The notes under the pieces: model-generated
The model's database searches: none
What the model was told of the DNA's origin: nothing
The model's input: only the letters and a program-made list of their open reading frames with translations
Made by a program: the position numbers and the translations under genes
Virus record (IMG/VR): IMGVR_UViG_3300017989_000409
Coordinates: 1 to 25,909 of that record
Reading direction: 5' to 3' (one strand)
Source of the DNA: a virus
DNA length: 25,909 bases
Shown here: positions 1-21,825 of the stretch, piece after piece
Layout: each line of letters starts with the position of its first letter
Numbering within the stretch: position 1 is the first letter of the stretch

Positions 1-53
1 GTCATCCTTTTTTTTTCACGGGTTTGCGGTCCCGGGTGTGGGGATGAATAAGT
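1..53. other. Left edge, upstream of first gene; possible end of a truncated gene
   Basis: This edge is too short to assign. One + strand frame stays open from base 1 to a TAA at 49-51 and would end in Asp-Glu. The same Asp-Glu-stop ending closes the gene at 572-1168 because it lies inside the 165-bp repeat. The repeat may therefore carry the last codons of whatever gene originally preceded the small terminase. A run of T at 8-16 has no obvious preceding stem within the window, so a terminator cannot be judged. Confidence 0.3.
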
Positions 54-206
54 ATGGGTAAGCGCGGTCCTAAACCTACGCCGACAAAGGTACTCGAAAT
101 GCGGGGTAGTTGGCGTGCGAGGGCTCGCAGTGATGAGCCGCAGCCGGAACCCGGGAAGCCGCAGTGCCCCTCATGGATGTCGGCCGAGCAAAAACGCGTG
201 TACCGG
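42..206 (+). repeat. Direct repeat copy 1 (start of small terminase gene)
   Basis: The 165 bases from GGATGAATAAGT to the TACCGG around base 206 recur at 1159-1323 with four substitutions, at 68, 92, 107 and 122 in this copy. Three of the four fall at codon third positions and are synonymous; the fourth changes Arg23 to Ser. The repeat spans an upstream Asp-Glu-stop, the start signal and the first 51 codons of the P27-type small terminase. Similarity ends abruptly at 206/1323. Confidence 0.95.
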
Positions 207-575
207 GACGCGCTTCCTTTCGACTATGATGGGAATGCTGTTTTCGCCTTCTTGAAAGAACAACTCAAGACCGACATTGCATTATACGGGAAGCTTTTTG
301 ATGATGGGCGAGTCCAAGAGCAGCCTCCTATCGGTCTTGACATGAGATTCGCCTTTTCCTGCAGCGTGCCCAAGGGGGCAATGCATCTCCGATTTTTCAA
401 GGGGAAGAAGAACGATGCTGACGCTCTAATATGGGAGACGATGGTCGAGTCCGTTGGGGAAGATGTCCCCAAGGCCCAAAAGGACATCCCGACTTGGGTG
501 AATGAAGCGCACCTTCTGGCGGAAGATTGGTTCTTCGCGCTGATAGAAGGGGACCTGCAGAGGAAGTTCGAGTGA
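54..575 (+). CDS. Chimeric protein: small-terminase N-terminus fused to a TIGR04255-like C-terminal domain
   Basis: The protein has 173 residues. Residues 1-51 are a near-exact copy of the P27-family small terminase N-terminus encoded at 1171. From residue 52 the sequence is unrelated. That part is about 120 residues and ends in a pattern (WVNEAH near 148-153, then a hydrophobic stretch, FFALIEGDL) resembling the C-terminal end of TIGR04255-family proteins, which are sporadically distributed and of unknown function. Those proteins are usually well over 200 residues, so only the distal half of the family seems present and its own start has been replaced by terminase sequence. The ribosome site is weak. 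The stop overlaps the next gene's GTG (GTGA), suggesting translational coupling. It could be an expressed chimera or a remnant gene. The TIGR04255 link is from memory of the family pattern and is tentative. Confidence 0.6.
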   Translation: MGKRGPKPTPTKVLEMRGSWRARARSDEPQPEPGKPQCPSWMSAEQKRVYRDALPFDYDGNAVFAFLKEQLKTDIALYGKLFDDGRVQEQPPIGLDMRFAFSCSVPKGAMHLRFFKGKKNDADALIWETMVESVGEDVPKAQKDIPTWVNEAHLLAEDWFFALIEGDLQRKFE

Positions 576-1168
576 CGTCCGGTTACACCATAACTGAAGC
601 GATAGCGCCCCAGGTGCGTCCCCTTTCGGGGACGTCAGTCGAGCTGGGTGTGGGAGAGGATGATGATATCCTTGACCTCCTTTGGGAGACGCTTCGCCTC
701 CTGACGGCTGGCAAGTGGCGGCTAAGTCCGGTTCGTCTGCATGGAGACGTTTCCTCTCTGCAAGGCAGCAGTGAGCTGACGGCCGGACTTGACTCGACTT
801 GGGCGTCTTCTCCGGAGTTCTTTCTTGATGAAATTCTGCAGCATGTGGACGATGAGAAGACCCGTTCTTTCATCGACAACGAAGGCCTGCAACTTAGTGT
901 TGCATGGGCGTGTTCTGAGGTACGGAAGGTTCTTGGTGATGTGAGTTTCAACGTGGAACTTCTCCCCGACGATGGAGAGGACCTCCCGCAACTCGCCTTT
1001 GTGATTCATGCTTCCATGTCGCGGAAGACATTCAAGGAGGGTAAGCGTAAGCTCTACGAGAGCATGCGCGTTGACCACGTATGTCTGTACCGCTTGGCGA
1101 GCATCTTTACGGATGAAAGCCTGACGTGCTTCCAGTGTTCGCGCAAGGCCGCATTGGCGGATGAATAA
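572..1168 (+). CDS. Hypothetical protein, partner gene of the left-end cassette
   Basis: I do not recognise this 198-residue protein. It is acidic in its N-terminal third (a GEDDD stretch) and looks soluble, with no signal peptide or membrane segment. A C-terminal patch has two Cys (CFQC). I chose the GTG at 572 because it overlaps the previous stop (GTGA) and has GAGGAAG about 8 bases upstream; the frame also stays open upstream to 527. The last two codons and the TAA lie inside repeat copy 2, so the 3' end is shared with the sequence that originally preceded the small terminase. Coupling to the TIGR04255-like gene suggests the two work together, but no role can be read from the sequence. 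Confidence 0.65.
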   Translation: MTSGYTITEAIAPQVRPLSGTSVELGVGEDDDILDLLWETLRLLTAGKWRLSPVRLHGDVSSLQGSSELTAGLDSTWASSPEFFLDEILQHVDDEKTRSFIDNEGLQLSVAWACSEVRKVLGDVSFNVELLPDDGEDLPQLAFVIHASMSRKTFKEGKRKLYESMRVDHVCLYRLASIFTDESLTCFQCSRKAALADE

Positions 1169-1323
1169 GTATGGGTAAGCGCGGACCTAAACCTACGCCG
1201 ACAAAGGTGCTCGAAATGCGGGGCAGTTGGCGTGCGAGTGCTCGCAGTGATGAGCCGCAGCCGGAACCCGGGAAGCCGCAGTGCCCCTCATGGATGTCGG
1301 CCGAGCAAAAACGCGTGTACCGG
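1159..1323 (+). repeat. Direct repeat copy 2 (start of small terminase gene)
   Basis: This is the downstream partner of the repeat at 42-206, 1117 bases away, with 161 of 165 positions identical. It contains the stop of the 572-1168 gene and the start and first 51 codons of the intact small terminase. The two copies bracket the lower-G+C cassette 207-1158. Confidence 0.95.
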
Positions 1324-1695
1324 CGCCTGGCGCGCGGGCTCCAGGACATGGGCGTGCTCGCGAAGATCGACCGCGACGTGCTGACTCGATACACGGTAAC
1401 GTTCGTTCAGTGGATGGACGCGGAGAAGGTGCTGAATGATAAGGGGCCGACGCAGAACGTTTACGGCAAGGCGGTCGACGAGGACGGGACTCCGCTGGTG
1501 ATCGGTACGACGGACAGACCGGAGGTCGCGCGCAGTCTGGCGCTCGGGAATATGCTGAATAAGCTCGAAGCAAAGCTCGGGCTGTCGCCGGCGGACCGTG
1601 TCGGCCTGAAGGCCGTTGGGAAAACCGGGAAGTCGAAGCAGGGTAAGTCTCGGTTCTTTGCCGGCGGTGCGGGCGCGGCGGGGACGGGTGCGTGA
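1171..1695 (+). CDS. terS: Phage terminase small subunit, P27 family
   Basis: This 174-residue protein opens with the Gly-Lys-Arg-Gly-Pro-Lys-Pro motif and basic N-terminus typical of P27-type small terminases (TIGR01558/Phage_terminase_S). It ends with the conserved LGLSPADR element near residues 136-143, followed by a Gly/Ala-rich tail. The family binds phage DNA and directs the large subunit to the packaging start. Position fits, immediately before the large subunit, whose ATG overlaps this stop (TGATG). The start is fixed by the N-terminal motif, although only a poor ribosome site (GGAT) precedes it. Its first 51 codons are duplicated at 54-206. Confidence 0.92.
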   Translation: MGKRGPKPTPTKVLEMRGSWRASARSDEPQPEPGKPQCPSWMSAEQKRVYRRLARGLQDMGVLAKIDRDVLTRYTVTFVQWMDAEKVLNDKGPTQNVYGKAVDEDGTPLVIGTTDRPEVARSLALGNMLNKLEAKLGLSPADRVGLKAVGKTGKSKQGKSRFFAGGAGAAGTGA

Positions 1696-3629
1696 TGGCG
1701 GCAACGACTACCGCAACCAGGCGCGGACGCAAAGGCATGGCGGCGCGGAAAGGCAAAGCAGGAACGTCGGACGCGGGCAAGCGGTCCGCGAGATCCCGGA
1801 AGGGATCGAGTTCGAGGGCGAGTAACGGGCAGGCAAAAAAGACGCGCACGCGGGCGACGACACGGCAGGGAGTGCGAACGACGGATGCGCAGCTGCGCAC
1901 GCTGAACCTGACAAAGCAGTGGGCTACAATACTGCGGCAAATCCCGATGTATGATCCGATCGCGACGGCCGAGGACTGCGTGTTCAGCCAGGAGCTGGCC
2001 CAGCGGGCGCTGGACTTTTTTCCGGAATGCCTGCACCACGTGAAGGGAACGAAGTTCGTTCAGGCCGGCGAGCCGTTCCGCCTGACTCCCTGGGAGGAGG
2101 CGGCGACGGCGAACATATTCGGGTGGGTTCGTCCGGATGGTACGCGCCGGTACCGGACCGTCTTTTTGTACATCCCGAAAAAAAACGGCAAAACCACCTG
2201 GGGCGCCGGCGTGGTGCTGTACGTGCTGGTGGGTGACGACGAGCCCGGCGCGGAGTTGTACTCGGCGGCCTCGAGCCGGGACCAGAGCAGCATTGTGTTC
2301 CAGCATGCGATGGGGATGGTGGACGCCGATCCGGAGCTGTCGAACATGCTGAAGATCTACGGGCGCCACCACGGCGGGCAGCGCAAATGTATTGAGTATG
2401 GCGCCATGGGATCGAGTTACATACCGCTGGCCGCTGAGGTGGGAGCGACCGATGGAATGAATGTGCACATGGCGATTGTGGATGAACTGCACCGGCACAA
2501 AAAGCGTGAGCTGGCGGATCTGATCGGCGAATCGACGGATGCGCGCCGGCAGCCGCTTGTGATCTATACCACCACCGCGGACAGCGCCGGCGAATCGCTG
2601 TGTAATGAGATGCTGGATTATGCCCGCAAGGTGCGTGACGGCGCGGTGAAGAACAAGGAGTTTCTGCCGATCATCTACGAGCCGACAAAGGAAGAGGCGA
2701 AACGCTGGACGGATCCGGAGGTATGGCGGAAGGTGAATCCGAGCTTTGGAGTGACGCTCGACGAAAAGGCCTTCGCGGCGAAATGTCGCCAGGCGCAGGA
2801 TCGGCCGATACTGGAGAACACGTTCAAGCGGCTGCGCCTTAACATCGTTACCGAGCAGATCGATCGGTGGATTCAGGCTGACAAGTGGGAGGCTTGCTCG
2901 GGCCTGCAGAAAAACGAGACGCCGATGGAATGGCGGTTGCGGATGCTGGATGCGCTGCGTGGGTACGCGTGTTTCGGCGGGCTGGATCTGGGGAGCACGT
3001 CGGATCTGACATCGTTTGGGCTGCTGTTTGCGCATCCGGAACGGGACGGCGTATACGTGATTATCCCGTGGTTTTGGATGCCCCACGACGGTATCGCTCG
3101 CAAGGACCCGATGCACAAGGATCTCTACGCCCAGTGGTGCCGCGAGGGCTGGGTGTGGGAAACGGACGGCGACGTGGCGGACTACGATCGTATCCGCACG
3201 GACATCACCGGCGTGCAGCTCAACGGCGAGGAGTCGGATACAGAGGGTCTGGTGAATGCGTACGGCGTTCAGGAGTTGCTGGTCGACCGCGTGTTTCAGG
3301 GGGCACAGCTTTGCAGCCAGCTTTTGAGCGATGGCGTGCCGGTGACATCGATGGGACAGGGGTTCATAAGCATGGCGGCGCCGGCAAAGTATTTTGAAGA
3401 ACGCGTTATCGGCGGGATGATCGAACACGGAAACAATCCGGTGCTGAACTGGATGGCGGCGAACGTGACGGTGAAGCAGGACGAGTCGGCGAACTACCGC
3501 CCGGTGAAGCCGGGGAAGAACAGCCCGTTGAAGATCGACGGGATTGTAGTAACGCTGATGTGTATCGCCGGCGCCGAGGGGCTGCTGGTTGAAGATAGCG
3601 ACGACGAGGACGATTCCATTATCCTGTAG
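1695..3629 (+). CDS. terL: Phage terminase large subunit (Terminase_1 / HK97-type)
   Basis: This 644-residue ATP-driven packaging motor and nuclease docks on the portal. Numbering from the in-frame GTG at 1692 (a possible alternative start), a Walker A-like PKKNGKTT lies at 162-169, Walker B AIVDEL at 261-266 and a TTT coupling segment at 293-295. Nuclease-domain acidic residues are plausible at Asp432 (GGLDLGST), Asp532 (LLVDRV) and Asp616 (KIDGIVV). This matches the Terminase_1 family usually paired with P27 small subunits. The first ~60 residues are a low-complexity Lys/Arg/Ala/Thr-rich extension before the family's usual start, so an internal ATG (for example 1737) remains possible. The acidic C-terminus (EDSDDEDD) is also notable. 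Confidence 0.96.
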   Translation: MAATTTATRRGRKGMAARKGKAGTSDAGKRSARSRKGSSSRASNGQAKKTRTRATTRQGVRTTDAQLRTLNLTKQWATILRQIPMYDPIATAEDCVFSQELAQRALDFFPECLHHVKGTKFVQAGEPFRLTPWEEAATANIFGWVRPDGTRRYRTVFLYIPKKNGKTTWGAGVVLYVLVGDDEPGAELYSAASSRDQSSIVFQHAMGMVDADPELSNMLKIYGRHHGGQRKCIEYGAMGSSYIPLAAEVGATDGMNVHMAIVDELHRHKKRELADLIGESTDARRQPLVIYTTTADSAGESLCNEMLDYARKVRDGAVKNKEFLPIIYEPTKEEAKRWTDPEVWRKVNPSFGVTLDEKAFAAKCRQAQDRPILENTFKRLRLNIVTEQIDRWIQADKWEACSGLQKNETPMEWRLRMLDALRGYACFGGLDLGSTSDLTSFGLLFAHPERDGVYVIIPWFWMPHDGIARKDPMHKDLYAQWCREGWVWETDGDVADYDRIRTDITGVQLNGEESDTEGLVNAYGVQELLVDRVFQGAQLCSQLLSDGVPVTSMGQGFISMAAPAKYFEERVIGGMIEHGNNPVLNWMAANVTVKQDESANYRPVKPGKNSPLKIDGIVVTLMCIAGAEGLLVEDSDDEDDSIIL

Positions 3630-3648
3630 GATGTAGTAGGAGGCAGTC

Positions 3649-3837
3649 ATGGTGCGGGTGGCAAAGCAGGTGGTGCTGTTCGGCGCGGGGATCGCGGTGA
3701 GTCTCGCGGTGTTTGTGCTGGTGATGTGGTACGGCTACGGTATGGAGCCGCAGAGCTGGCCGTGGGTGCTGGCCGTATATCCGGTGGGGATGCTGGTCGG
3801 CCATGGGATTACGATGCTCGCGCGAACCGAGCAGTAA
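3649..3837 (+). CDS. Small two-helix membrane protein
   Basis: This 62-residue protein is predicted by eye to have two membrane helices, about residues 8-28 and 38-56, with a short MEPQSWPW loop between them. A good ribosome site (TAGGAGGCAG) lies a few bases before the ATG. It sits alone between large terminase and portal with short gaps, so it is co-transcribed with the head genes. Small membrane proteins at this position are common in phages, but I know no assigned role. A holin-like function is possible and unproven. Confidence 0.75.
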   Translation: MVRVAKQVVLFGAGIAVSLAVFVLVMWYGYGMEPQSWPWVLAVYPVGMLVGHGITMLARTEQ

Positions 3838-3846
3838 GGAGCGCTT

Positions 3847-5652
3847 ATGATAGGGCTGAATATCGCGACAATCGATTCCGCGGCGAGCATACTGGCGGAG
3901 CGTATGCTGGGTCCGTGGAGGGTCCGGTCGTACGACAGTATGGGTATCGGCGGGATGCCGGTGGCCGGCATACGCGTGACGAAGGATACGGCGCTGACAT
4001 ATTCGACGTTCTTCGCCTGTATCCGGCTTATATCGGAAACCATCCGGCTGATGCCGTTCCACGTGTTTCGCCGCGCCGGCCGGTACCGATTCCGGATGAG
4101 CTCCGGGCGAGATCCAAAGGACGTGGTCCGCGCCGATGGACTTCTGAGCAAGAAGGCGAACGAGGAAATGGGCGCCGCGACGTTCCGCGAACAGCGGATG
4201 ATATGGGCCATGCTGCAGGGCAATAGCTGCTCGGAAATCGATTATACGCTTGCCGGGCTGCCCGGCGCGCTATACCCCTTCGACGATGCGACGGTCGATC
4301 TCGAGCGCGACAGCAAGGGGGCGCTCGTGTATGTCGTGAAGCGCGGGCAGGAACAGGAAAAGACGCTTCCGGCCTGGAAGGTGTTCCACCTGCGCGGGCC
4401 GTCGCCGGATGGGCTGTGGGGATGGTCGATTCCGAAGCTCGCGCGCGAGCCGCTTGCGCTGGGGCTGGCGATGCAGAGTTTCGGCGCGGCGTTCTTCGGG
4501 AACAACTGCCGGCCCGGGCTGGCGCTGAAACTGTCGCACAAGCTGAAACGGGAGCAGCGCGAAAAGTACCGCGAGGAAATCGACGGCATGCACCGGGGAT
4601 CGCCGAAGGCGTACCGGACGCTGCTGCTCCAGCCGGGGATGGATCTCAAGGAGTACAAGATCTCGGCTGACGATGCACAGTTTCTGGAAAGCCGCAAATT
4701 CCAGAAAGCGGAGGTCTGCCAGTGGTTCAACATGAAGCTGCACAAGGTGGGCGAACCGGGCGAGAAGTTCAACAACATGGAGCGGCAGAATATCGAGTAC
4801 ATCCAGGACGCTATTCTCCCGTGGGCGTCGCGGCTGGAGGAAGAAGCGGACATGAAACTGATCGGGAAGGACCGCGCGGAGTACTACACGAAGCTGAACG
4901 CCAACCAGTTTCTGCGCGGTGACTCCCAGGCCCGCGGCAAGTGGTACGATACCATGTTCAAGATCGGCGTGTATTCGATTAACGATATCCTATCGCGCGA
5001 GGACGAAAACCCCGTCGGCCCGGCCGGCGACATGCATTTCGTGCCGATGAATATGGCGTCGCTCGACCAGGCGTATCGCGACGGCAGTACGACGCCGAAA
5101 AAAGCGTTGCCGGGAGGCGTGTCGAACGGGACGGCATCCGATACCGTTGCGTGCGCGTATCTGAAAGACGGCGCCGGCAATTGGGTCACGGGCACGGCGA
5201 CGTCTGGGCCGTCGCCAGACTGGGAACGGTACAGCGCGGCTCACCGGTGCGTATTCGAGGCGGCCGCCGCGTGGCTGGTGAAAAAGGAAGCCAATGCCGC
5301 TACGCGCGCGGCCGCGAAACACGACAACGACACGGAGGCGTTCAGCGCGTGGCTGGTCGACTTTCACGAGCGCCACGCCGACGAGATGGTATCCGCGTTC
5401 TCCACGCCGGCCGACGCGCTGGCGCAGCTGGTAACGGACGGCGAGCGCTCGGAGGAGAGCGTTACGCGCGTGCATGAGGCCATAGTATCGACGTGCGCGG
5501 CGATATGCGCGGAGGCCGCCGCTGCATACCGGCACGCGTACGGCAACCTGGGCGTGCCGGCGCTGGCGGCGCAGCGTGCGGAAGATTCGGCCGGATACAT
5601 TGCCGACCGGATGATGGCCTCGATTATCGCCGCGCTTCGAGGCGTGCTGTGA
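3847..5652 (+). CDS. Phage portal protein, HK97 family, with long C-terminal extension
   Basis: This 601-residue protein forms the dodecameric DNA channel at one capsid vertex and is the docking site for terminase and connector. The N-terminal part contains the characteristic stretch around residues 50-75 (TYSTFFACIRLISETI, then MPFHVF) of the HK97-type portal family (Phage_portal), and the core resembles it through about residue 400 (VPMNM). Family members are usually 400-450 residues. The remaining ~170 residues are Ala/Glu/His-rich, mostly helical-looking and not recognised; they may be an added portal barrel or internal domain. The start has AAGGAGCGCTT upstream, and the stop overlaps the next gene (TGATG). 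Confidence 0.95.
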   Translation: MIGLNIATIDSAASILAERMLGPWRVRSYDSMGIGGMPVAGIRVTKDTALTYSTFFACIRLISETIRLMPFHVFRRAGRYRFRMSSGRDPKDVVRADGLLSKKANEEMGAATFREQRMIWAMLQGNSCSEIDYTLAGLPGALYPFDDATVDLERDSKGALVYVVKRGQEQEKTLPAWKVFHLRGPSPDGLWGWSIPKLAREPLALGLAMQSFGAAFFGNNCRPGLALKLSHKLKREQREKYREEIDGMHRGSPKAYRTLLLQPGMDLKEYKISADDAQFLESRKFQKAEVCQWFNMKLHKVGEPGEKFNNMERQNIEYIQDAILPWASRLEEEADMKLIGKDRAEYYTKLNANQFLRGDSQARGKWYDTMFKIGVYSINDILSREDENPVGPAGDMHFVPMNMASLDQAYRDGSTTPKKALPGGVSNGTASDTVACAYLKDGAGNWVTGTATSGPSPDWERYSAAHRCVFEAAAAWLVKKEANAATRAAAKHDNDTEAFSAWLVDFHERHADEMVSAFSTPADALAQLVTDGERSEESVTRVHEAIVSTCAAICAEAAAAYRHAYGNLGVPALAAQRAEDSAGYIADRMMASIIAALRGVL

Positions 5653-5831
5653 TGGGGATGCTGTTCGAGACGGAGCTGATACGGCCGGAGCGCGTGGGAT
5701 CGCTGCAGGAACTGTTGAAGGATCTGCCGCCCGATACCGCGGTGCTGAGTGCGGTTGGAGTGCTGCGGATCGCGGTGCTGACAGACGAGGAGATCGGAGA
5801 GCGACGAGTGGAAATCTCGACGGTGGCGTAA
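5652..5831 (+). CDS. Hypothetical 59-residue protein
   Basis: The protein has 59 residues and no recognised family. It reads as a short alpha/beta fold with conserved-looking LQELLKDLPPDTAV and IRVEIS-like ends. It is coupled on both sides: its ATG overlaps the portal stop (TGATG) and its stop overlaps the next ATG (TAATG). That makes the ATG at 5652 a much better start than the longer open frame reaching into the portal gene. A second ATG at 5658 would shorten it by two residues. Confidence 0.7.
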   Translation: MGMLFETELIRPERVGSLQELLKDLPPDTAVLSAVGVLRIAVLTDEEIGERRVEISTVA

Positions 5832-6076
5832 TGGGACGGGTGTACGCTGATGAATCCGGAGAGCTGATGCTGGCGGAAGGGGATTACGGTATACATCCCC
5901 GTGATGGGCAGTGGTATGCTCGCCCGCCGGGAATGCATACCGGAAGTTTGCAGAATCACGCGGTGGAAGAACACGAGGATGGAACGATCACCGTTTCCCC
6001 CTCGATTCGTATCGCCGATGGCCGCGGAAAGTCGTGGTACGGATACTTGAGACGCGGTGTATGGGTCGCGGTATAG
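5831..6076 (+). CDS. Small phage protein, DUF6527-like
   Basis: This 81-residue protein has a His-x-x-(E/D)-E-H-E-D-G-T-I-T-V-S-P-S-I core (about residues 44-58) and a WYGYLRRGVW ending. That is the layout of a widespread family of small phage and bacterial proteins (DUF6527-type) of unknown function. Those proteins usually carry paired Cys for metal binding; none are visible here, so this is a metal-less version or a relative. It is coupled to the preceding gene by TAATG and lies just before the prohead protease. Confidence 0.7.
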   Translation: MGRVYADESGELMLAEGDYGIHPRDGQWYARPPGMHTGSLQNHAVEEHEDGTITVSPSIRIADGRGKSWYGYLRRGVWVAV

Positions 6077-6086
6077 GGAGGTAATC

Positions 6087-7037
6087 ATGCCGACGGAAAA
6101 GATGGTGCAGGACGATATGGTGGTTCGGGCGGCGCAGCATTTTCGCGAGGAGCTGGACGCGGACCTGTTCCTGGGGGTGTATCCGCTGAGCTTCGAGAAG
6201 ATGCTTCACGGGGCAGGGGCGGCGGTGCGCAGCGGACGTATATCGATCGGTGTGCTGAGCGACGATACGAAGCCGGTGCCGACGTCCGGACCGGTGGCGG
6301 ATCTGGAGCGGGACTGGTTTCCGATCAGCCTGGTCGACGGCCAGGCGATCGTGCAGGTGTCCGGGCCGATCTTCAAGGGCAGCAATATCCTCACCCGGCT
6401 GTATGGCGGATCGAGCACGAAAACGCTGCAGCAGATTCTGCGGCTGGCCGCGGCGGACGAGGATGTGAAGCGGATCGTGCTGTCGATCGATTCGCCGGGC
6501 GGGTCGGTGAGCGGCCTGTCGGAGCTCGGCGATACGCTCGACCGCGTACGCGCGCGCAAACCGGTGGTGTCGCACATCGACGGGCTGGGAGCATCGGCGG
6601 CGTATTACATCGCCAGCCATACCGACACGATCTACGCGGAGCGTACCGCGCTGGTGGGATCGATCGGGACGATAATGGTGATGTACGATTACGCAAAGAT
6701 GTTCGAGGAGGCCGGCGTGAAGCCCGTGGTAATCGCCACGGGGCCGTACAAAGGCACGGGCGTGATGGGCACCGAGATCACGGAGGATCAGCAGACGGAG
6801 CTGCGGGAGATCGTGGACTTCTACTTCCGTGAGTTCGCCGCCACGGTGATGAAGGGCCGGTCGATGGCGAAGAAGGACTTCGACGAGCTGGCCACCGGCC
6901 GCGTGTGGGACGCACCCGCCGCGCGGAAGATGGGCCTGGTGGATCAGCTGACCACGCTGGACGGCGTGCTGGCGAAGGGGCGAAGCCGGTCGAACAGGAT
7001 CAAGGCCGAGGTGGGACTGGCCGGCATTAACGGATAA
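6087..7037 (+). CDS. S49-family (SppA-like) prohead protease
   Basis: This 316-residue protein is the likely head-maturation protease that trims the capsid protein's N-terminal scaffold inside the prohead. The S49/SppA fold is clear: SIDSPGGS at 133-140 (substrate-binding strand), nucleophile Ser170 in GLGASAAYY, and the general base Lys222 in GPYKG. There is no signal peptide, as expected for a phage cytoplasmic enzyme rather than cellular SppA. The gene lies between portal and capsid, the standard place. The ATG at 6087 is chosen because GGGAGGT precedes it; the frame is open upstream. Confidence 0.93.
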   Translation: MPTEKMVQDDMVVRAAQHFREELDADLFLGVYPLSFEKMLHGAGAAVRSGRISIGVLSDDTKPVPTSGPVADLERDWFPISLVDGQAIVQVSGPIFKGSNILTRLYGGSSTKTLQQILRLAAADEDVKRIVLSIDSPGGSVSGLSELGDTLDRVRARKPVVSHIDGLGASAAYYIASHTDTIYAERTALVGSIGTIMVMYDYAKMFEEAGVKPVVIATGPYKGTGVMGTEITEDQQTELREIVDFYFREFAATVMKGRSMAKKDFDELATGRVWDAPAARKMGLVDQLTTLDGVLAKGRSRSNRIKAEVGLAGING

Positions 7038-7081
7038 TAGCGGGTATTCGGGTATTGGTTTTTCGTTCGAAGGGAGGATGT

Positions 7082-7417
7082 ATGCGGATTGCAAAGTGTG
7101 ACATTGATGGCGCGGAGGTCGCTTCGGCTGTGGAGCTGACATCGCTGGGTGAGGATCTGCGCACCGAGGGCATAGAGGACCTATGTCCCCGATGTGCGGA
7201 CGGCCTGCAAGCGAAGCGCGAGGAGCTCGAAGACGCGGCGGCAGAGCGGGTGAACGCGGAGTTGCGCGCCTGGCTTCGGAATCGCGCAGGGAAGCCGGCT
7301 GCCGTGGCGGCCGTCGAGGACAAGGGCGACGTCGGCGGCGAGCAGAAGGGCGACGTCGGCGGCGAGAAAAAGACCGCAAAGAAATCCTCGCAGAAAAAGG
7401 CCTCCAAGAAGTCGTAG
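7082..7417 (+). CDS. Small Cys-containing protein with Lys-rich tail
   Basis: This 111-residue protein has no family I recognise. Cys6 and a CPRC at 35-38 could give an incomplete zinc-ribbon-like site. A charged helix (about 42-68) follows, then a tail with two copies of KGDVGGE(Q/K) encoded by a 24-bp tandem repeat (7322-7369), ending in a run of Lys/Ser/Ala like histone H1 tails. The start at 7082 has AAGGGAGG upstream. It lies between protease and capsid, so a nucleic-acid-contacting head protein or an assembly aid is conceivable. It is the last gene before the 478-base gap. Confidence 0.7.
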   Translation: MRIAKCDIDGAEVASAVELTSLGEDLRTEGIEDLCPRCADGLQAKREELEDAAAERVNAELRAWLRNRAGKPAAVAAVEDKGDVGGEQKGDVGGEKKTAKKSSQKKASKKS

Positions 7418-7436
7418 CTGTGCTCCAGCGATCGGT

Positions 7437-7471
7437 CCGGGCGGTTGACGGTTTCTTGTGTCGCCGCCCGG
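7437..7471 (+). terminator. GC-rich hairpin after the Lys-tail gene
   Basis: CCGGGCGG (7437-7444) pairs perfectly with CCGCCCGG (7464-7471) around a 19-base loop, and wobble or Watson-Crick pairs can extend it outward by three. It begins 20 bases after the stop of the 7082-7417 gene. No T-run follows, so it may be a weak or Rho-assisted end, or an RNA-stabilising structure, rather than an intrinsic terminator. Confidence 0.4.
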
Positions 7472-7549
7472 GTCGTCTCGGTTGACGGGGAGACTATCCA
7501 GATTCTGGCTGATTTCTCCGGTTTGGATGTTTTTTTATGTTGCCGGGTC

Positions 7550-7577
7550 TTGACTGGCGATGTTTCGGCCGTATGCT
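7550..7577 (+). promoter_or_regulatory. Candidate sigma70-type promoter for the capsid transcript
   Basis: TTGACT (7550-7555) and TATGCT (7572-7577) are separated by 16 bases, matching 5/6 and 4/6 of the sigma70 consensus. A transcript would start near 7584, giving a leader of about 300 bases before the capsid ATG. It sits in the only long gap of the head region. This is pattern matching only; the host's promoter rules are unknown. Confidence 0.3.
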
Positions 7578-7782
7578 GAGGGTGTGAGGTGTGATCTGAA
7601 TGTTGTGTTTCAGAATTGCGAGGGTTGATCTGATGAGCTGGTGATAACGCGTAGTGCCGGTGCCGGAGATCTCCGCGGAGTCCGGAGTAGTCGGTATCGG
7701 TGCGAGGGTGACGGAGTGCGCGGAGTTCGTACTGAAGCCCGCGGCTGTTGAGGCCATGGTATTTTCTGGTTGAGGTTGCGCG

Positions 7783-7837
7783 ACGCGGAGTACGGCGCGG
7801 ATCTCGATTCCGACAGACACTGATTTACGCGGAGTAC
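7783..7837 (+). repeat. Pair of 11-bp direct repeats in the capsid leader
   Basis: ACGCGGAGTAC occurs at 7783-7793 and again at 7827-7837, 44 bases apart. The core CGCGGAGT also occurs at 7674 and 7719. These could be protein- or RNA-binding sites in the capsid leader, or chance in G+C-rich DNA. Confidence 0.5.
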
Positions 7838-7839
7838 GT

Positions 7840-7872
7840 AACGCAGTCCTTTCGAATGGCTGCGTTTTTTTT
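7840..7872 (+). terminator. Intrinsic terminator / attenuator 23 bases before the capsid start
   Basis: AACGCAG (7840-7846) pairs with CTGCGTT (7860-7866) around a 13-base loop, and eight T's (7865-7872) follow at once, the classic intrinsic terminator form. It lies directly ahead of the capsid ribosome site (GGGAGGAG) and start at 7896, so unless read-through or antitermination occurs it would block upstream transcription from reaching the capsid gene. Confidence 0.65.
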
Positions 7873-7895
7873 GTGCACGCACCGGGAGGAGAGCA

Positions 7896-9287
7896 ATGAA
7901 CGAAAAGCTGAAGGAGCTTCGGGCGAAGATGGCGAACCTGCACGAGCAGGCGCGGGCGATAACGGACGGCGCGGGCGACCGCGACCTGACGGACGAGGAG
8001 CAGGCCTCGGTGACGAGACTGCTGGACGAATACAAGGCGGTCGAGGCCGAGGCGAACGCGCTCGAGGAGAAGGCCGCACGGCAGGCGGCGCTGCGGCAGC
8101 AGATCAGCGACGCCGGCGATACGCTGGAGAAAAGTCACGGGCGCGTGCTGGGCATGGCGCGGCCGACGGCGGACCGGCGCACGCAGGAAACCCATGCCGC
8201 AATGGACAGCTCGCGCGAGCGCGTGCTTGACGACCCGAAGGGCGGCTTCCGGGATTACGGCGAGTTCTGTAGCTCGGTGATCCTCGCGGCCACGCCGGGC
8301 GAGGCGGTGGACGAGCGGCTTCGGATTATCGATGCGGCCTACGGCCAGAACATCGACACGGGATCTGAGGGCGGCTTCCAGGCGCCGCCGGAGTTCTCGA
8401 ACAAGATGATCGCGCGCATGAACCGCCGGCTGGGGCTGGCGGGCAAGGCGGACGTCGTGAGCATGACCAGCAACTACCTGCGGTTTACCGGACTGCAGGA
8501 TCACGATCGCAGCACCACCGCGTACCGCTACGGCGGCGTGATCGTCTACATGGTCGGCGAAGGGAAGCAGATCACGCGCAGCACGCAGAAGACTCGCGCG
8601 ATAGAGCTGAAGCTGCACAAAATGTGCGCGCTGTCGTACGCGACGTACGAGGAGATCAAGGCGGTCGCGAACATGGGCACGCGTCTGCTGGACTCGCACG
8701 GCGGCGCCCTGGGCGACACGATGGAAGAGCAAATGATGTTCGGCACCGGCGTGAACCAGCTTCAGGGCGCGTTCAACGCGCCGTGCTGCGTGTCGGTGGC
8801 GAAAGAGTCCGGCCAGGTGGCGGACACAATCGTCGCGGAGAACGTGGCGGCCCTCGAGGGCGCGCTGGCGGAGGAGAGCGAAGAGGACGCGGAGTTCTTC
8901 TACAACTCCGAGTGTTTCCCGCAGCTCCTGTTTATGAAGGTGGACATCGGCACGGGCGGCGCGCCGCTGATGACGGTCGGTCGCGGGATGGAAGGCAAGC
9001 CGTTCCGGACGATCCTCGGGCGCCCGGCGCACAAGACAAACAAGTGCGAGGCCCTCGGCGACGCGGGCGATATCTGCCTGGGCGACTTCTCGAAGTACGT
9101 CCTCGGCATGCGCGGCACGGTGGACACGGCCATGAGCGTGCACCTGCGGTTCGACTACGTCGAGACGTGTTTCCGGTCGATCGTGGAAGTGGACGGCCAG
9201 CCGTACTACGAGCAGGCGCTGACGCCGCGCAAGGGCGCGAGCGGCCGTACGGTAAGCCCGTTCGTCAAGGTGGCGGAGCGGGCCTGA
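7896..9287 (+). CDS. Major capsid protein, HK97 family
   Basis: This 463-residue shell protein has an N-terminal helical coiled-coil stretch (about residues 1-70, Lys/Glu/Ala-rich), the delta/scaffold domain typical of HK97-type capsids without a separate scaffold gene. A linker follows, then the HK97 core beginning near residue 110. A recognisable part is the GSEGGFQAPPEF segment, corresponding to the family's 'G.lvP..f' motif. The S49 protease encoded just upstream would be expected to remove the N-terminal domain at an undetermined site. Strong ribosome site GGGAGGAG. It sits alone after the long gap and terminator-like hairpin, suggesting separate control of this most abundant product. 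Confidence 0.95.
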   Translation: MNEKLKELRAKMANLHEQARAITDGAGDRDLTDEEQASVTRLLDEYKAVEAEANALEEKAARQAALRQQISDAGDTLEKSHGRVLGMARPTADRRTQETHAAMDSSRERVLDDPKGGFRDYGEFCSSVILAATPGEAVDERLRIIDAAYGQNIDTGSEGGFQAPPEFSNKMIARMNRRLGLAGKADVVSMTSNYLRFTGLQDHDRSTTAYRYGGVIVYMVGEGKQITRSTQKTRAIELKLHKMCALSYATYEEIKAVANMGTRLLDSHGGALGDTMEEQMMFGTGVNQLQGAFNAPCCVSVAKESGQVADTIVAENVAALEGALAEESEEDAEFFYNSECFPQLLFMKVDIGTGGAPLMTVGRGMEGKPFRTILGRPAHKTNKCEALGDAGDICLGDFSKYVLGMRGTVDTAMSVHLRFDYVETCFRSIVEVDGQPYYEQALTPRKGASGRTVSPFVKVAERA

Positions 9288-9317
9288 GTAGCAAGGCCAT
9301 AACGAAAGGAGTTTGAC

Positions 9318-9851
9318 ATGGGTGAAAACGCAAGGTGTCTCGAGAGGATGCAGATCGTCCCCGGCCAGGCCGCGGGCCCGGCCGACATCAACGGCGCCGG
9401 TATTACCGGCGATTACGTTTCGTTCAAAAACTATCGCCGCTGCCTGGTGCTGGTGTACGCCGGCGACGGCAGCGCCGGCGGCGACCTGCAGGTGGACCTG
9501 TACCAGGCCACCGACGTTTCCGGCACGGACGCGAAGGTGCTGAACGCCCTCGAGACGGAACGGATCTTCACGAAGCAGCACGCCAGCACGTTCGCCGGCG
9601 TGGAGCAGTGGACGAAGGAAACGCAGGCGACCGCGGACCAGCAGTACACGGACGCCACCTCGGGCGAGCAGGTGAACCTGTGGGGCCTCGAGGTGAAGGC
9701 CGAGGACCTGGACGCGGACAACGACTTCGACTGCATGCGGGCGGACGTTGCCGACCCGTCGGCGGCGAAGGTGGTGGGGCTGCTGTACATCCTCATGGAC
9801 CCGAAATACCCGAGCGCGCCGGAGCTGATGCTGTCGGCGATCGTGGACTAA
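9318..9851 (+). CDS. Probable head-decoration / structural protein
   Basis: This 177-residue acidic protein is Gly/Ala/Asp-rich with predicted beta-strands and no membrane segment. The GAGITGDYVSFKNYRRCLVLVYAG stretch (about residues 26-49) resembles small proteins commonly encoded straight after HK97-type capsid genes. Those are thought to be capsid-associated, but I cannot name a family firmly. AAGGAG precedes the ATG. It is 30 bases after the capsid stop and is followed by a very strong hairpin, consistent with co-expression with the capsid. Confidence 0.72.
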   Translation: MGENARCLERMQIVPGQAAGPADINGAGITGDYVSFKNYRRCLVLVYAGDGSAGGDLQVDLYQATDVSGTDAKVLNALETERIFTKQHASTFAGVEQWTKETQATADQQYTDATSGEQVNLWGLEVKAEDLDADNDFDCMRADVADPSAAKVVGLLYILMDPKYPSAPELMLSAIVD

Positions 9852-9859
9852 CCATTTCG

Positions 9860-9902
9860 GCGGCGGGGTCCGGCTGCCGCGTCGCGGCGCCGGGCCCGCC
9901 GC
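9860..9902 (+). terminator. Very strong GC hairpin between decoration and beta-helix genes
   Basis: A nearly perfect 19-bp stem forms: 9860-9867 with 9895-9902, 9869-9874 with 9889-9894 (one G-T pair, G9868 bulged), and 9876-9880 with 9884-9888 (T9875 bulged), closing on a GTC loop. It begins 9 bases after the preceding stop. No T-run follows, so it may stop transcription only partially or protect the 3' end of the capsid-decoration mRNA. ATCCGG is repeated just after it. Confidence 0.6.
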
Positions 9903-9934
9903 TCTATCCGGATTATCCGGGGAAGGAGTAGTAG

Positions 9935-10849
9935 ATGGCGGATCGAAGAGGCAAAACAGCGCTGTTCGCGAAGTGGCTGGGCGGCAGCCTGGTGATTGCG
10001 GATCAGCTTCGCACCACGGGGACCATTCTGTTCGTGCATTCGGGGACGGGCACGGACGACAGCGCGCACGGGTACAACCCGGACACGCCGCTGGCGACGA
10101 TCGACTACGCCGTCGCGAAATGCACGGCGAGCAAGGGCGATATCATCGTGGCGATGCCCGGGCATGCGGAGACCGTATCGGCGGCCGCGGGCCTGGCGCT
10201 GGACGTTGCGGGCATTACGGTGCTGGGGCTCGGCAGCGGATCGCTGCAGCCGACCGTCACGCTGGATACGGTGGACACGGCCGACGTGGACGTGGACACC
10301 GCGAACATTACCGTGGAGAACCTCCATTTCCGTGCGAACTGCGCGGATATCGCCGCGGCGATCGACGTGAACGCGGACGATTTCACGTTGCGCAAGTGCC
10401 GGTTCTCCGAAGTGGCGACGAACATGAACGCGAAGATCTGGGTGCAGGACGCCGCCGCGGGCGGGTCCGACCGGATCACCATCGAGGACTGCCACGTGGT
10501 GGCGCTCGACGCGGCCAATACGCACTTCGTCAACTTCGCCGGCACGGGTACCGGGCACCGGGTGCGCCGGAACGTGCTGATAGGCAACTGGGGCACGATG
10601 GCGATCGGCGGCGCGGGCGTGGTGACGAACGTGGAGATCTCCGACAACAAGATCTCGAACGCGGCCACGGACAACGACTCGTGCATCAACCTGGCCGCGG
10701 CGGCGACGGGCGTGGTGATGGGCAACAAGTGCTGCGGCGGCGCGGCGCAGGCCAACGGCATTACCGCGCAGGGCTGCGCGCTGTGTGAGAACTACTACGG
10801 CGTCGTCGGCGAGGACCTGAACGGCATCCTGGAGCCGATCGCAACGTAA
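9935..10849 (+). CDS. Right-handed parallel beta-helix structural protein in the head module
   Basis: The protein has 304 residues. After a short N-terminus (1-30) comes a segment (about 33-80) with the pattern 'V.SGTGTDD...GY.PDTPLATIDYAV..C..SKGDIIV..PGH.ET', typical of parallel beta-helix (pectin-lyase-like) proteins. It is followed by repeated short strands with Asn/Asp turns (ITVENLHF, FTLRKCRF, ITIEDCHV, VEISDNKI, GVVMGNKC) spaced like helix coils. Such helices bind or cut polysaccharides in tail fibres. Here the gene lies between capsid/decoration and connector genes, so it may instead be displayed on the head. AAGGAG precedes the ATG, and the gene is bracketed by two strong hairpins. 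Confidence 0.8.
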   Translation: MADRRGKTALFAKWLGGSLVIADQLRTTGTILFVHSGTGTDDSAHGYNPDTPLATIDYAVAKCTASKGDIIVAMPGHAETVSAAAGLALDVAGITVLGLGSGSLQPTVTLDTVDTADVDVDTANITVENLHFRANCADIAAAIDVNADDFTLRKCRFSEVATNMNAKIWVQDAAAGGSDRITIEDCHVVALDAANTHFVNFAGTGTGHRVRRNVLIGNWGTMAIGGAGVVTNVEISDNKISNAATDNDSCINLAAAATGVVMGNKCCGGAAQANGITAQGCALCENYYGVVGEDLNGILEPIAT

Positions 10850-20859: not shown

Positions 20860-21825
20860 ATGTGCGCGCTGCAGGTACGCGATAATTCCGGCCTTCAGGC
20901 GTTCGTCAATTCCGGTCTGCAGGTGCGCGGCCAGGCCGGCGGCGGGCTGTTTTCGATTGGCGACCTGAGCGGTGCGATGGCGGACCGGACGGAGAAGTAC
21001 TCGTATACGGCAGACTCCTGGGCGGTGGTGCACGATATGCTGCAGGATTGGGAGTGGGGCGCGGCTGTCGGGGTGGGCACGAAGGCGTACGCGGAGAACG
21101 ATTATCGCGGATATCTGGACGAGTACGATCCGGCGGCGGATGATTGGACGGCGCGCACCGCCCGCGCGGGTGGGGTGGTGCGGCGCTCGGCCGCGGCGGA
21201 GATCTCCGGGGACCTGTACGTGTCGTGCGGAGAGCGGCCGGGGTGGAGCGATACGGTGCGCGACACGGACGCGTACGATCCGGCGACGGATTCCTGGGAC
21301 GGCGGGATTACGGAGGCTCCCGCACCGGCGCGTTCGTGTTTGGCGGCGGCGTCCCTCGATGGGGAGCTGTATATCTACGGGGGCAATACGCTGTACATCT
21401 ACGGGCAGGCCTTGCCGACGCGCAAGGCGGCATGTGTGGCCGCCTGCGACCGGTACACGCCGCTGGGGGATTCGTGGGCGGCGATGCACGATATGCTGGC
21501 CGCGCGCGATTCCGTGTGTGGGTCGGCGATACGAGACAAGGCCTACGTATACGGCGGCTTCGGCTCGAACGGGAGCTGGTCGGACTTCGACGACTGCGAC
21601 GAGTACGATCCGGCGTCGGACGGTTGGACGGCAAAGCATGCGATGACCTTCCGGAAGTACGACGCGGCCGCCTCCACGGTAAAGGGGCGCGGCGTGGTGC
21701 ACGGGGGGTGGACGTACAGCGGGCCGAAGCACGGGGAGTGTGATGCGTATCTGCCGAGTACGGATACCTGGGACAGTCGCGACGGATATGACTCGCGCAT
21801 GCGGCACGGTTCGGCGGCAGCGTAG
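20860..21825 (+). CDS. Kelch-repeat (six-blade beta-propeller) tail protein
   Basis: The protein has 321 residues. After a ~35-residue N-terminal segment, six repeats each carry a '(D/E)xYxPxxDxW' element, with Tyr/Trp pairs at 49/54, 89/96, 139/146, 199/206, 249/256 and 297/304. Each is followed by a hydrophobic strand and, in the best repeats, a Gly pair (YIYGG 171-175, YVYGG 229-233, VVHGG 279-283). This is the Kelch motif of beta-propellers. Codons are also repeated: GACGAGTACGATCCGGCG occurs at 21118-21135 and 21598-21615. There is no signal peptide, so it is a virion rather than a secreted protein by context. The propeller probably binds a host-surface ligand. The ATG overlaps the previous stop (TAAATG, adjacent). 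Confidence 0.82.
   Translation: MCALQVRDNSGLQAFVNSGLQVRGQAGGGLFSIGDLSGAMADRTEKYSYTADSWAVVHDMLQDWEWGAAVGVGTKAYAENDYRGYLDEYDPAADDWTARTARAGGVVRRSAAAEISGDLYVSCGERPGWSDTVRDTDAYDPATDSWDGGITEAPAPARSCLAAASLDGELYIYGGNTLYIYGQALPTRKAACVAACDRYTPLGDSWAAMHDMLAARDSVCGSAIRDKAYVYGGFGSNGSWSDFDDCDEYDPASDGWTAKHAMTFRKYDAAASTVKGRGVVHGGWTYSGPKHGECDAYLPSTDTWDSRDGYDSRMRHGSAAA

Follow-up and report, generated by a model that had tools for sequence, protein, structure and literature searches.

Organization of the left end of the phage genome

The window, the whole 25,909-nucleotide stretch of DNA that was analysed, is an IMG/VR virus record (IMGVR_UViG_3300017989_000409) read from base 1 of that record. Near its left end lies a 165-nt direct repeat, ungapped and with four mismatches, whose two copies occupy 42–206 and 1159–1323 on the plus strand and which no other direct repeat of the window approaches in length. 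Copy 1 comprises 12 nt of leader and codons 1–51 of terS, the small terminase gene, while copy 2 comprises a remnant of the leader and the same codons and runs on into an intact gene. This gene (1171–1695, plus strand) encodes a P27-family small terminase (PF05119, E 4e-13; TIGR01558, E 2e-15; phrog_83, E 3e-25) with a complete PF05119/TIGR01558 domain, in agreement with an earlier, sequence-only reading of this DNA which held that an intact terminase is kept downstream. It is followed by the large terminase gene terL (1692–3629, plus strand; PF03354, E 1e-24; PF20441, E 1e-18) and by portal, S49 protease and capsid genes, giving an HK97-like order. A Kelch-repeat protein is encoded in the tail region (20860–21825).

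The 952 bp between the repeats (207–1158) have a GC3 of 0.61–0.62 as against 0.77–0.81 in terS, terL and portal, and no recombinase gene, terminal repeats or inverted ends accompany them. The sequence-only reading had described a lower-G+C two-gene cassette flanked by a 165-bp repeat pair. The repeats lie exactly where it placed them and the insert is indeed foreign and of lower GC3, but the first of the two ‘genes’ proves to be a terS/TIGR04255 chimera without a start of its own. The copies differ at 68/1185, 92/1209, 107/1224 and 122/1239, each of which is the third position of a terS codon (P = 0.012, assuming uniform changes); three of the differences are synonymous, as had been noticed before, and the fourth is an R>S replacement. 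The final 84 nt of the two copies show no differences.

The first 53 nt of the window (plus strand) hold the presumed cos-type left end of the phage genome and the terS leader, with the motif TTTTTTCACGGGTTT at 11–25. In the window, and likewise in L005, L006, L031, L059 (as CAAGGG), L091, L100 and L152, the distance from the contig end to the start of a CACGGG core is exactly 17 nt, and the same core is found 18 nt from the end in L041 and 19 nt in L130; in most of the seven 17-nt contigs a core of this type immediately precedes terS. A conserved motif before terS keeps a constant spacing to the ends of independent contigs, from which, on the basis of established cos-phage biology, we infer that the window begins at the physical end of the phage, at a cos-type site. 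With the genome ending there, it follows that copy 1 occupies the native, cos-adjacent place of terS and that copy 2 is the displaced one. Motifs resembling TTTTTTCACGGGTTT, set at a constant spacing from contig ends, mark a cos-type end common to a broad group of phages. A search for other contigs with the leader of the window found none.

Cassette-free relatives, in which the sequence-only reading had proposed to test for a single, uninterrupted terS, do exist. In the nearest relatives, L005 and L006, whose terS is 49% identical, cos is followed by terS, terL, portal, S49 protease and capsid, and the insert is absent. Extra DNA is present at other places in two relatives, with about 0.9 kb in the terS/terL gap of L031 (~527–1419) and about 3.8 kb in the terL/portal gap of L007 (~2600–6408). 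We considered the idea that copy 1 is retained for a terminase-binding cosB site overlapping the terS start and rejected it, as a comparison of L005 with L006 shows no reduction of synonymous change within codons 1–51. The 90-nt leaders of these two phages are identical at 85 of 90 positions, and any such cosB-type site is more likely to lie in the leader than in the terS start.

A truncated TIGR04255 gene fused to the terS start

The first open reading frame (54–575, plus strand) opens with residues 1–51 of terS and continues, in frame, as the C-terminal half of a TIGR04255 protein. Its terminase portion is limited to these residues, which cover only positions 39–98 of phrog_83 and not a complete terminase domain, and the frame has no Pfam match. 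The remainder, here termed X′ (207–575, plus strand), is a truncated TIGR04255 gene corresponding to approximately residues 135–254 of a 257-residue homologue, the first ~134 residues being gone. The 122 residues of X′ align over their full length with a Planctomycetota TIGR04255 protein (L223; 46% identity, E 9e-38), with a second homologue at 40% (L233; E 1e-34), and because this alignment spans all of X′ the N-terminal half must have been lost exactly at the terS junction. The junction, 206/207, falls on a codon boundary and is in register with the homologues (VYR/DA compared with RYIDA). Against the TIGR04255 profile X′ covers positions 184–252 of 252 with 21.2 bits, below the curated cut-off of 30; the homology is restricted to the C-terminal half and does not amount to full-length membership. 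The possibility that 54–575 is an ancient stand-alone gene is rejected; the frame is the start of terS fused to a broken TIGR04255 gene. Searches of phages and plasmids by tblastn with X′ and Y, the product of the second frame, gave nothing significant, and both proteins are unmatched in PADLOC.

Planctomycetota TIGR04255 genes (L213, L223, L229, L231, L234, L237 and others) usually overlap a second gene, which varies between loci. The 25 genes located further downstream of such pairs include five PIN, one PIN_3, one PemK/MazF and four DUF7689 matches, and these loci appear to share a three-gene, toxin–antitoxin-like layout. The phage version resembles them in that X′ is the C-terminal half of a family member and in the overlap of the TIGR04255 gene with the gene downstream, but it lacks the N-terminal half as well as the third (effector) gene, which in some host loci is PIN or MazF-like.

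The second frame and its HEPN context in host genomes

Y (572–1168, plus strand) begins with a GTG codon that overlaps the X′ stop as GTGA, and its last two codons and stop sit in the terS leader of copy 2. The frames of X′ and Y contain no stops, as opposed to 6–17 in the other frames. An initial scan of genome contigs with Y gave no match; its C-terminal domain (residues ~95–180) matches proteins of Planctomycetota genomes (E 3e-8 in G120; pairwise E 7e-12), and a Y profile retrieved nine host loci from two genomes (G120 and G172), seven of them from one genome. The gene next downstream of the Y homologue is a HEPN gene in eight of the nine loci, and PF05168 (HEPN) was confirmed in all three of the downstream genes tested. 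The domain of Y is thus one found directly upstream of HEPN genes. Since the 5′ gene is often the antitoxin in type II toxin–antitoxin and MNT–HEPN pairs (PMC3710099), Y is, judged by the order of its homologues, in the antitoxin position, and gene order would make it a putative antitoxin. The six frames of the window contain no HEPN domain and Y is followed by terS, so that the window does not carry a HEPN toxin–antitoxin module.

The Y-domain/HEPN gene pairs (L255–L262, in G120 and G172) occur in several copies within one genome, and their HEPN group conserves R-x4-R-x-YYA, H and R-x3-DY. In an alignment judged by inspection the usual R-x4-6-H motif is not conserved in this group, and its toxicity is for this reason uncertain; PADLOC gives only weak HEPN hints for these proteins. 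The arrangement recalls MNT–HEPN modules (PMC3710099), in which the 5′ gene likewise lies directly upstream of the HEPN gene. In Y, the GSx10DxD motif of MNT nucleotidyltransferases was not seen on inspection, and the MNT fold match of its model is weak and not distinctive: no hit of the fold search reached E < 0.001, and the Z of 7.2 for 1ylq is similar to that of unrelated rows. A resemblance to RecQ1 (phmmer E 0.03) was taken as chance.

The Y profile found no Y behind typical TIGR04255 genes. BLASTP detects no relationship to X′ in the X-like genes upstream of Y in L245 and L253, so that a native TIGR04255–Y–HEPN order in the hosts is putative. With respect to source, all terS homologues in bacterial genomes are in Planctomycetota metagenome-assembled genomes, and the nearest homologues of X′ and Y come from one class of this phylum (G120 has both, G048 has X′). 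Planctomycetota are most likely the host of the phage, and since the relatives of terS, X′ and Y all point to this phylum the insert is most plausibly a piece of host-type DNA, foreign to the phage. The exact donor sequence was not found by our searches.

Origin of the duplication

Illegitimate recombination probably placed host DNA between cos and terS and in doing so duplicated the terS start. According to this explanation, an HK97-like phage with a linear (cos) genome would have gained a 952-bp host fragment between the cos end and terS. At the left junction terS codon 51 would have been joined in frame to a host TIGR04255 gene near its midpoint; the copied or ligated fragment would hold the remainder of that gene and nearly all of the overlapping Y gene; and at the right junction, 12 nt ahead of the terS start, the recombinant would have passed back into phage DNA, producing the 165-bp duplication. 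Template switching is one example of a non-homologous capture that could return backward to phage DNA in this manner. The molecule returned to was probably the genome of a sister phage whose lineage had diverged slightly, and this would account for the four third-position differences. The first terS copy would then supply the leader and start codon of the fused frame, with Y remaining translationally coupled through the GTGA overlap. The event was most likely a one-off. An in-frame fusion and two open frames are slightly more than pure debris needs, and this counts against the explanation. As in phage morons and other illegitimate captures, lower-GC foreign genes lie between phage genes and the original gene is retained; unlike them, this insert sits between cos and terS and starts in a broken gene that continues the reading frame of a duplicated terS start.

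A variant that differs in the number of steps, and for which we would argue tentatively at most, would have a phage with the cassette (cos, full X, Y, terS) cross over non-homologously with one lacking it (cos, terS), with the break at terS codon 51 and in mid-X, so that copy 1 comes from the cassette-free parent and copy 2 from the other. The placement of all four differences at third positions suggests that both terS alleles evolved as functional genes, and the final step would need one new junction only. However, no phage with a full X–Y pair between cos and terS was found, and an earlier capture of X–Y is still required. Under capture or crossover alike, the differences at third positions favour terS alleles from two distinct lineages, consistent with the proposal of the sequence-only reading that the copies diverged in separate lineages or under selection.

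That the structure is an assembly chimera at a contig end is improbable. The junction does lie only 206 nt from the end of the contig, the copies have an 84-nt exact stretch in common, and a second IMG/VR contig, 3300029267_005954 (10,312 bp), breaks within this stretch, 40 nt into copy 1. Yet this contig is 100% identical to 167–10478 of the window and spans junction 206/207. It is a separate contig, although it may derive from a further assembly of the same sample, and its identical junction argues against an error. A de Bruijn assembler moreover requires reads across 206/207, the repeat copies differ, and the join keeps to a codon boundary and to the register of the homologues. An assembly error behind the repeats is accordingly unlikely.

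Self-comparison of 71 terS loci, some of which start at or near terS and so offer limited upstream sequence, found a duplicated start elsewhere only in the second contig of the same phage. The observed repeat–insert–repeat structure is what a circle with one repeat copy would leave after a single crossover, as the sequence-only reading pointed out, but a mobile moron or circle that uses the terS start as its landing site is very improbable, as neither a duplicated start nor other cargo at this junction was seen in the 70 other terS loci, no recombinase gene or inverted ends are present, and the insert begins in the middle of a broken gene from a host-type operon.

Possible function of the captured genes

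Capture by illegitimate recombination, our preferred explanation of the origin, is compatible with a role of the captured DNA in counter-defence, a reading that concerns function. It is plausible that Y is a putative orphan antitoxin directed against a host HEPN system. That Y, with or without the chimera, was kept because it neutralizes a host HEPN effector is rather unlikely. This reading is favoured by the occurrence of Y without a HEPN partner and by its antitoxin position in the hosts, and both frames are open, with the in-frame fusion and the GTGA overlap preserving translation. There are also precedents. Phage phiTE-F acquired ToxI, an antitoxin of a ToxIN plasmid, through recombination (PMC3475682), and phages encode antitoxin mimics such as AdfB of ICP1, which acts against DarT (PMC11481870). 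On the other side, the antitoxin activity of Y is deduced from gene order alone, the toxicity of the host HEPN proteins is uncertain with the usual R-x4-6-H not conserved, and a position next to terS suggests late expression, which argues against early counter-defence. The captured frames are presumably expressed; no sigma-70-like promoter was found in 1–1800.

The fullest form of this reading, in which only the antitoxin-side genes of an undescribed planctomycete TIGR04255/Y/HEPN-type module were taken and Y is a decoy that blocks HEPN-mediated abortive infection, expressed from the duplicated terminase start, is more doubtful still. As in phiTE-F, a phage would have taken just the antitoxin part of a toxin–antitoxin locus by recombination; that case (PMC3475682) differs in being RNA-based and experimentally shown, while Y is a protein whose antitoxin role would follow from gene order. 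TIGR04255 is not named in the literature searched, in which we found no description of planctomycete TIGR04255/Y/HEPN operons.

The locus described here would represent a phage's recent acquisition of host-type DNA in which both junctions are still readable, at a cos–terS site that has no such insertion in the examined relatives. An active Y would provide a protein parallel to the antitoxin theft of phiTE-F, and would point to TIGR04255/Y/HEPN operons as defence or toxin–antitoxin modules of planctomycetes.
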